Assembly (NCBI GenBank): GCA_013390905.1
Contig: JACATG010000005.1
Span: 32,001 to 85,990 of the forward strand
Source: Marine Group I thaumarchaeote
Lineage (GTDB): Archaea > Thermoproteota > Nitrososphaeria > Nitrososphaerales > Nitrosopumilaceae
Reading direction: 5' to 3'
DNA length: 53,990 nt
The position numbers and the translations under genes were made by a program. The notes beneath the pieces are model-generated. The model was not told the origin of the DNA. It saw only the letters and a program-made list of their open reading frames with translations, and ran no database searches. Of the stretch, positions 18,461 through 46,513 are shown piece by piece. Position 1 is the first letter of the stretch, and each line of letters begins with the position of its first letter.

Positions 18461-18865
18461 TTGCAAGACAAGTCTGTAAAACTATTTTCTGAAAAAAATC
18501 TCGTGTTTATTGCAACAATCATGAAAGATGGCTCTCCACAAGTATCTCCTGTTTGGGCAAACTATGAAGATGGATATATTTTTGTAAATACTGCAGAAGG
18601 AAGAATAAAACACAAAAATGTCTTACGTGATCCTCGTGTTGCGATATCTGTTGTATCAAAAAACAATCCACTTGATATGACAACAATTCGTGGAACTGTT
18701 GAAGAGTTGATTCCTGATTATGAATACAAACATGCTGACAAACTTACACAACAATACATGAATCGTGAACATTATCCATTCAAACGTGATGATGAAAAAA
18801 GAGTAATTCTAAAAATCAAACCAATCAAAGTTTTTGTTTTACCTGAATTGAAGATGAACGAGTAA
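18461..18865 (+). CDS. PPOX-class (F420/FMN-dependent) oxidoreductase family protein
   Basis: The 134-residue protein has the split-barrel flavin-binding pattern KNLVFIATIMKDGSPQVSPVWANYEDGYIFVNTAEGRIKHKNVLRDPRVAISV, which is characteristic of pyridoxamine-phosphate-oxidase-like, F420-dependent enzymes. The C-terminal RDDEKRVILKIKPIKVFV strand is also typical. The substrate is unknown. The start is TTG at 18461, 12 nt after the regulator, which suggests co-transcription. A perfect 22-bp palindrome begins 12 nt after its stop. Confidence 0.88.
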   Translation: MQDKSVKLFSEKNLVFIATIMKDGSPQVSPVWANYEDGYIFVNTAEGRIKHKNVLRDPRVAISVVSKNNPLDMTTIRGTVEELIPDYEYKHADKLTQQYMNREHYPFKRDDEKRVILKIKPIKVFVLPELKMNE

Positions 18866-18899: not shown

Positions 18900-18947
18900 T
18901 AAAATTAATTATAAATTAAAAAAATAGAAAAAAGAAAGTAAGACAGT

Positions 18948-19261
18948 TTATCGTGTACGTTTAGCTGCCTTTCTTTTTGGAGCTGCTCTACGGTTAGCTG
19001 CCTTTCTTTTTGGAGCTGCTCTACGGTTAGCTGCCTTTCTTTTTGGAGCTGCTCTACGGTTAGCTGCCTTTCTTTTTGGAGCTGCCTACGTTTTGGAGCT
19101 GCACTACGTTTTGGAGCTGCACCCTTTCGAGTTGCTGTTGCCTTTCTCCTGCGAGATGCTTTTGCTTTTGTTGCTGCTGCTGCTTTTGCTGCTGCATTTC
19201 TCTTACGAGTTCGTGCTGCTTTTTGAGCCGCTGCTGCTCTTTTAGCTTTAGAAATAGCCAT
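18948..19261 (-). pseudogene. Frameshifted Lys/Ala-rich histone-H1-like protein
   Basis: From ATG 19261 the frame encodes MAISKAKRAAAAQKAARTRK... and blocks such as GAAPKRSAAPKR, which is the composition of histone-H1-type DNA-binding tails. Then the frame changes: the next four 33-bp units read VEQLQKERQLT instead of the RRAAPKRKAAN encoded one frame over. The fourth unit (19059-19090) is 32 bp because one base is missing at 19085/19086. Restoring it gives RAAPKRKAAN repeats ending KAAKRTR and a stop at 18948-18950. Unrepaired, the frame runs to 18905 with a hydrophobic end. Either the gene is broken or slips, or this is an assembly error. A TATA box near 19284-19293 supports a leaderless start at 19261. 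Confidence 0.8.
18960..19090. repeat. Four tandem 33-bp repeats in the H1-like gene
   Basis: Units at 18960-18992, 18993-19025, 19026-19058 and 19059-19090 share the sequence beginning gttagctgcctttctttttg. The fourth is 32 bp. The first three are identical apart from the first base. Because 33 is a multiple of three, gain or loss of whole units keeps the frame, but the one-base loss in unit four does not. Confidence 0.9.
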
Positions 19262-19363
19262 ACTTTTTTGCAAAAGTTATGCGTGTTATATAGTACAAGT
19301 CACACATAACTACGCTTACTATAAGAAAATTTGACACTTTTTTTGATTTTATAAAATACTCGA

Positions 19364-19855
19364 TCAACAATTTGTTATACAAACAACAGCTGTATCTACA
19401 GTTGATTGTTCTTTTTGTGGTCTTACAATAATTTTGTATTGTACTTCTTCACCAAACGGAATATCAAACTGCGTTGTTATCTCAATTGGTTTGTTTGGCT
19501 CTAACCATTCTATGAATAAATCTTTAGAAGAAAACTCTCCTTCTCCAAATATTGCCTTGTGTTTTTGATCTCTTTCATCAACAATGTAGAATTGTCCTCC
19601 TGTCAGCAGAGTTTTTTCATCACTTATGTTTTTTGCAGTAATTCCAATCATTACAAACGTGTTTTCAGGTCTAATTTCCTCACTTCCATTATGTGTTCCT
19701 TCGAATGTAATGACATATTCTACTGGTCCAACTGTAATTGTATCTCCTGCTACTGCTGTGATGTAGTTTGTTTGGTATTGTGAATACATGTACATTCCAG
19801 CTCCCATTGAAGCAAATATTCCAACTATTATCATCACAACAACAAATCCCGCCAT
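19364..19855 (-). CDS. Membrane-anchored DUF4352-like surface protein
   Basis: The 163-residue protein has an N-terminal hydrophobic anchor (residues about 3-25). An exported beta-sandwich follows, with TITVGPVEYVITFEGTHNGSEEIRPENTFVMIGITAKNIS, QFYIVDERDQKHKA and PIEITTQFDIPF. This pattern is that of DUF4352/telomere-repeat-factor-2-like immunoglobulin-fold domains. Two cysteines at the very end (VVCITNC) could form a disulfide. The role is unknown, probably cell-surface. Confidence 0.75.
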   Translation of the reverse strand: MAGFVVVMIIVGIFASMGAGMYMYSQYQTNYITAVAGDTITVGPVEYVITFEGTHNGSEEIRPENTFVMIGITAKNISDEKTLLTGGQFYIVDERDQKHKAIFGEGEFSSKDLFIEWLEPNKPIEITTQFDIPFGEEVQYKIIVRPQKEQSTVDTAVVCITNC

Positions 19856-26569: not shown

Positions 26570-26772
26570 TTCTCTCTTTTCATCTCATTTACTCTAGTTA
26601 GCATTCTTGCAATATCATGACGTAGTGGTTTTAGCTTACCACTTTGTTTTCGTAGTGTGCCTTTAGCCCCATCAATTCTAAGTTTAGTAAGTTCGCTTCT
26701 TGATTCCTGAATCTTACTTTTAAGATCATTTTCGTTTAATTGTTTAATGGTTTTCATACTAATTCTAGTCAT
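26566..26772 (-). CDS. rpl29: Ribosomal protein uL29 (L29)
   Basis: This is a 68-residue, two-helix-hairpin protein: [48 protein letters not shown], the L29 pattern. It binds near the peptide exit tunnel where signal recognition particle docks. It overlaps rps3 by 4 nt. Confidence 0.95.
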
Positions 26773-27698
26773 TTTAATCTGTTCTCCTCTTCCTCTAATG
26801 TCTCCAAACTTTTCATTTTTTCTTCTTCAATAGCAATTTGTTCTGATTCTGTTTTTACCTTCTCTGTTTGAACACTTACCTTCTCTGTTTGATCACTTAC
26901 CTTCTCTGTTTGATCACTTACCTTCTCTGTTTGATCACTTACCTTCTCTGTTTGATCACTTACCTTCTCTGTTTGATCACTTACCTTCTCTGTTTGATCA
27001 CTTACCTTCTCTGTTTGATCACTTACCTTCTCTGTTTGATCACTTACCTTCTCTGTTTGATCACTTACCTTCTCTGTTTTTTCTTCTTGTTTTACTTTCT
27101 TTGGTTTTTCGTCTCTCATTTCAAATTCTGGAATGAGTTTTTCTTTTCTTGCAATTCTAATTCTAATTCCAATTAAACCCATTTTAGTTTTTACATGTGC
27201 AATGTCTTGTTCGACAATAATCTCTGCATGATGTCCAGCTCTTGGTAAAATTCCTGCTGTGTGTTTTTCAAATGCTGAACGGTCACCTCTAAGTTTTCCA
27301 GAAATTGTAATTTGAACTCCCATTGCTCCATTTTCCATGATTTGTTTTAATGTCCACATTGTTGCTCTCCTAAAAGCAGTTCCACGCTCAATGTGGGCGG
27401 CCATTCTGTTACACATAACACCTGGAACTAGTTCTGGTTTGTCAATTTCTACTACTGAAATTTGTGGGTTCTTTAAGTTAAAATCTGTTGCAAGTTTTTC
27501 GGTAAGTGCTCTGATTCCAGTTCCTTTTCTTCCTATAACGATTCCAGGTCTTGTCACATGTAATGCAACTCTAGTTCCTGTTGGAGTTTTTGATATTTCT
27601 GCATGTGAAAAACCTGCATCTTTGATTGCTTCTCTTAGATAATCTTTGAGAAGCATCATGTTGTAATTATCTTTGATTACGTTTTTGACTGCTGACAT
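26769..27698 (-). CDS. rps3: Ribosomal protein uS3 (S3) with heptapeptide-repeat C-terminal tail
   Basis: The core (residues about 1-205) is typical archaeal S3: a KH domain with [16 protein letters not shown], then [15 protein letters not shown]. It is followed by an unusual tail of about 100 residues containing nine EKVSDQT heptads, one EKVSVQT and an acidic end. Archaeal S3 is usually about 210-250 residues, so the tail is an extension encoded by 21-bp tandem repeats. It may be flexible at the mRNA-entry side of the ribosome. It is the longest ribosomal gene after rpl3 here. Confidence 0.96.
26856..27080. repeat. 21-bp tandem repeats in rps3
   Basis: About ten units of acttaccttctctgtttgatc run across this stretch. 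Nine carry gatc and one carries gaac. They encode the heptad EKVSDQT on the minus strand. The near identity of the copies suggests recent expansion or ongoing homogenisation, and the copy number probably varies between strains. Confidence 0.9.
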
Positions 27699-46402: not shown

Positions 46403-46513
46403 CTAACGTTTCTTTTTAGTTTTAGAACCTTTTTTTGCAGCTGCGTTTCTTTTCCTAGTGAGAGCACCTTTTTTTGCTGAAGCACTACGTTGAGCTTTTG
46501 TTCTTTTTACCAT
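46403..46513 (-). CDS. 36-residue Lys/Ala-rich H1-tail-like protein
   Basis: Minus-strand frame from ATG 46513: MVKRTKAQRSASAKKGALTR..., then KRNAAAKKGSKTKKKR. It is rich in Lys, Arg, Ala and Ser, like histone H1 tails and like the frameshifted gene at 18948-19261. It probably binds DNA non-specifically. The segment KRNAAAK occurs in both. Confidence 0.6.
   Translation of the reverse strand: MVKRTKAQRSASAKKGALTRKRNAAAKKGSKTKKKR

Follow-up and report, generated by a model that had tools for sequence, protein, structure and literature searches.

A single missing base puts the basic tail of a histone-H1-tail-like gene out of frame in an assembled marine thaumarchaeote genome

A basic repeat-tailed gene with one base missing

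Does a histone-H1-tail-like gene of a marine thaumarchaeote still encode its basic tail, or has the gene been broken, either in the organism or in the assembly? The gene lies in the window, by which we mean the whole stretch of 53,990 nucleotides that was analysed. As assembled, it occupies 18905–19261 on the minus strand, starts with the ATG at 19261 (ATG GCT ATT TCT AAA...) and translates as MAISKAKRAAAAQKAARTRKRNAAAKAAAATKAKASRRRKATATRKGAAPKRSAAPKR. The product is small, rich in lysine, alanine and arginine and very basic (118 aa, net charge +23), and it probably binds DNA. Its stop in the present frame (18905–18907) falls outside the interval 18948–19261 that the first-pass annotation had considered.

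The intact N-terminal part, read on the minus strand from 19261 to 19088, comprises 58 codons (MAISKAKRAAAAQKAARTRKRN...AAPKR) with a net charge of +21 and is conserved across the genus in an alignment of the first 60 residues. Two 18-bp units, AAPKRS and AAPKR-, are found at 19086–19120, the second of which (19102–19086) has only 17 bp. They are followed by four 33-bp units at 18954–19085 (19085–19053, 19052–19020, 19019–18987 and 18986–18954), each of full length. Tandem Repeats Finder places this 33-bp array at 18956–19090 and counts 4.1 copies in it, at 98% matches and without indels (0%). The first three units are mutually identical, and every unit contains CCAAAAAG and an A5 run. The first-pass annotation had described four units with a 33-bp period of which the fourth had 32 bp; period and number hold, but all four units are full and the short one is the second 18-bp unit, so that a '32-bp fourth unit' appears only if the phase is set differently.

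A single base is absent between 19086 and 19085, where the 18-bp units meet the four 33-bp units, outside any homopolymer and outside the A5 run. That a base is missing had been noticed before, with the right coordinates, and is borne out by direct reading and by an alignment with three relatives, which has a single-base gap at this position. Beyond the junction, the present frame encodes four QLQKERQLTVE-type units with regularly spaced leucines and stays open for 60 codons. In the -1 frame the sequence is AAPKRKAANR R... KAAKRTR, followed by a stop at 18948; reading both frames confirmed what had been stated about their sequences. This out-of-frame ancestral tail (18948–19085, minus strand) has 45 codons plus the stop and no further lesion. 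The net charge of the tail thus changes from +21 in the ancestral frame to +2 in the present frame. When the codons of the tail were shuffled (n=20,000), the shifted frame was open in 64% of the cases and never contained at least 90% K/A/R/P, compared to 91% in the real sequence. We therefore exclude that the K/A/R-rich shifted frame is a chance product.

As assembled, the gene is therefore broken, as had been proposed: residue 58 is the last in the ancestral frame, and the basic tail does not continue in frame to the C-terminus as it does in the type-1 orthologue group. We looked for a second lesion in the promoter, the start, the N-terminal 58 residues and the shifted tail and found none, so the event is either very recent or artefactual.

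The upstream region contains the element TGTGTGACTT together with a TATA-like box (19286–19311, minus strand; TATATAA at 19292–19286). The 50 bases upstream of the ATG that include both are near-identical across the type-1 orthologues and intact here. In these orthologues the ATG stands close behind the nearly invariant element and the TATA box, and the transcript is possibly leaderless. The window also contains a short intact basic paralogue at 46403–46513 on the minus strand (MVKRTKAQRSASAKKGALTRKRNAAAKKGSKTKKKR, 36 aa) with the same N-terminal signature, and short copies similar to it are present in two other genomes (G091 and G071).

The basic frame is kept in related genomes

To place the gene among its relatives, we searched 95 genomes of the genus, 56 of them of good quality, with a profile of the first 60 residues. 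The family was detected in 61 of the 95 genomes and in 46 of the 56 good-quality ones. Named relatives matched by the profile include Nitrosopumilus sp. D6, other Nitrosopumilus MAGs and a Nitrosarchaeum, and from the names of the relatives we infer that this genome belongs to Nitrosopumilus. The gene carries the N-terminal signature M..SKAKRA.AA.KAARTRKRN, which forms invariant alignment columns in the type-1 syntenic orthologue group. As in that group, it is located between a pyridoxamine-oxidase-like gene (18461–18865) and a small membrane protein gene (19364–19855); the conserved flanking genes, named by inspection, comprise these two and an ArsR-like HTH gene.

In total, 74 distinct copies were listed, including type-1 orthologues and type-2 paralogues. 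We left out the gene studied here, the 36-aa paralogue, the frameshifted copy L072, four copies cut off by a contig end and two that contain Ns, which leaves 65 complete, ambiguity-free copies, nearly all from the same genus. All 65 hold the K/A/P/R frame to a basic C-terminus and none naturally ends in the QLQKERQLTVE tail. The homologues thus show the alternative frame to be the ancestral one and agree with the first-pass annotation that it is the coding one. The orthologue closest in layout (L061, genome G117) has four 33-bp units, RAAPKRKAAKR three times followed by a variant, and its codon at the junction, where the window lacks one base, is complete. L061 and the orthologues L054 (G090), L044 (G081) and L008 (G007) resemble the window gene in promoter, N-terminus and the repeat vocabulary AAPKRKAA, and the gene neighbourhood of the latter two matches as well; unlike the window gene, all four remain in frame up to an end of the KRRR or NRRR type.

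The excluded copy L072 (G107:C27:69846-70001), a type-2 paralogue of another species starting with MVQTKAQRS..., is also frameshifted, and since its lesion is located at a shortened A run, it is of a different kind. A frameshift in NORP47 (L024/L046) was set aside as it lies in a stretch with many Ns.

Probable gene loss or possible assembly error

The best explanation, which we consider on balance probable, is that this dispensable gene has recently lost its function here, through deletion of one base at the 5' border of the 33-bp array. The gene is an orthologue of a genus-conserved basic, repeat-tailed, histone-H1-tail-like protein, and under this explanation the deletion has put its C-terminal half out of frame. 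The deletion may have arisen recently, when slippage or unequal exchange gave rise to the array of near-identical units; that it coincided with a recent homogenisation of the array is suggested by the identity of the first three units. The product would still have the N-terminal half with its charge of +21, but a near-neutral tail in place of the +21 one, and with such a tail the putative binding to DNA would become weaker or disappear.

The main competing explanation is that the assembly or the consensus is wrong at the border of the tandem repeat and that the living organism has an intact gene. We take this to be a real possibility, although probably not what happened; the grading of both the loss and the artefact is a judgement and not a computation. 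The genome is a draft of 20 contigs and 1.23 Mb, and the lack of further decay in the gene fits an error as well as a recent mutation. Furthermore, at least seven related assemblies are broken, gapped or blurred within this gene family, so that a local error is possible: contigs end within it in G005, G018, G062, G027 and G084, G075 has a 100-N gap inside it and G071 has many Ns there. An error is, however, at odds with the position of the missing base, which is not homopolymeric, and with the usual outcome of array collapse, which normally takes out whole units and thereby keeps the frame. Moreover, a 21-bp array in rpsC (26855–27079) stays in frame although it is longer than the 33-bp array and lies in the same window.

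Unexplained single indels are also few in the rest of the genome. In a frameshift survey of 1.19 of the 1.23 Mb against the closed relative G007 (1,152 genes, 925 kb aligned), we found 12 raw frameshift pairs, of which about three were genuine upon inspection; most raw pairs turned out to be tRNA, antisense matches or matches to non-coding sequence upstream. Two of the approximately three genuine cases have an additional stop, from which we conclude that unexplained single indels are rare. One case combines a frameshift near an A8 run with a stop (C3:36505-36991) and another is a single indel (C3:39999-40456). We thus rejected a generally poor consensus in this genome as an explanation. Another of the genuine cases, a short winged-helix-like gene (C11:3033-3331; L099, G000) has both a stop and a frameshift compared to G007, and is thus probably a genuine pseudogene. 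The rpsC gene itself (26769–27698, minus strand) has a C-terminal expansion of S3 with about ten TEKVSDQ repeats (21 bp x 10.7, 99% identical) that is absent in S3 of G007.

Improbable readings: frame switching and a new C-terminus

Could both tails be made? The frame might be switched at translation, or by slippage of DNA or RNA at the A5 runs of the 33-bp units, to yield two products. The present and -1 frames are both open over the array, CCAAAAAG occurs within each unit and the promoter is intact, which speaks for such switching. We nevertheless consider it improbable, as the missing base is outside the A5 run and the frameshift is not conserved in any relative. Translational rescue is unlikely: a -1 shift at the junction would meet a TAG codon, and the right frame has no heptamer of the canonical X XXY YYZ type. 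Programmed frameshifting as a family trait is ruled out by the complete, ambiguity-free relatives, all of which are in frame, and it is unlikely here. The suggestion of the first-pass annotation that slippage turns the tail on and off is thus not supported, given that the base is missing outside any homopolymer and that the frameshift is shared by no relative. Its bolder form, a frame-switchable archaeal H1-like protein in which repeat slippage toggles between a +21 DNA-binding tail and a neutral tail of 11-residue repeats within one population, is very improbable. Least credible of all is that this lineage has given the protein another role, with the 11-residue repeats of the QLQKERQLTVE tail, a possible coiled-coil, serving as a functional new C-terminus: the frame is open for 60 codons past the junction with its leucines regularly spaced, but the pattern is an automatic by-product of the shifted repeat, is not the natural end in any other species and bears no independent sign of selection.

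Comparison to known histone-H1-like proteins

The C-terminal tail of the eukaryotic linker histone H1 is rich in lysine, alanine and proline and is expected to be disordered. The window protein resembles this tail in composition; unlike the linker histone, it is without a globular winged-helix domain. The intact orthologue matched no Pfam family at E ≤ 0.1 and no NCBIfam model, and the frame-shifted product had only sub-cut-off Pfam matches to unrelated families. We therefore class the protein as H1-tail-like by composition and not as a member of the AlgP or Hc2 family, and the earlier label 'histone-H1-like' holds in this compositional sense only. The Lys/Ala-rich tandem-repeat tail typical of AlgP and Hc2 is likewise present by composition, in the shifted frame only.

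AlgP of Pseudomonas aeruginosa has a histone H1-like C-terminal domain, and rearrangements are reported to be concentrated in its repeat region (PMC9239181). Both AlgP and the window protein in its ancestral frame have a basic Lys/Ala/Pro-rich tandem-repeat tail with putative DNA binding, whereas AlgP is bacterial, has a separate helical N-terminal domain of 124 aa and carries KPAA repeats. The variation reported for AlgP is a change of repeat number, and a frameshift is not mentioned there (PMC9239181). Hc2 (hctB) of Chlamydia trachomatis is H1-like and rich in lysine, and it comes in different sizes because the number of its internal repeats varies (PMC2848022); unlike the window protein, it is bacterial with pentamer-based repeats, and the two share no sequence-family match. 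A literature search found nothing specific on this protein in thaumarchaea.

Dispensability and relevance of the gene family

The H1-tail-like gene is cleanly missing between its conserved neighbours in the closed genomes G022 (L170) and G082 (L171) and, among the drafts, in at least G104 (L172), and G015 (L169) has no clear copy at the syntenic place. As the gene is absent from its syntenic place in other species, its loss is tolerated in the genus and the gene is dispensable. Furthermore, this genome retains one histone-fold gene and two Alba genes, all intact, in addition to the short paralogue. The importance that had been attached to the loss was thus overstated.

Overall, the locus is a case of ordinary pseudogenisation or an assembly slip in an under-described family of basic proteins. 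More useful than this minor frameshift is the observation that most species of an abundant marine ammonia-oxidising genus carry a conserved H1-tail-like gene, whose promoter is conserved too and which no Pfam or NCBIfam family matches. As histones are reported to be scarce in Nitrosopumilus maritimus (<0.06% of the proteome; PMC7613761), such a gene is relevant, and the fact that it can be lost provides natural comparisons between genomes in which it is present, absent or broken.
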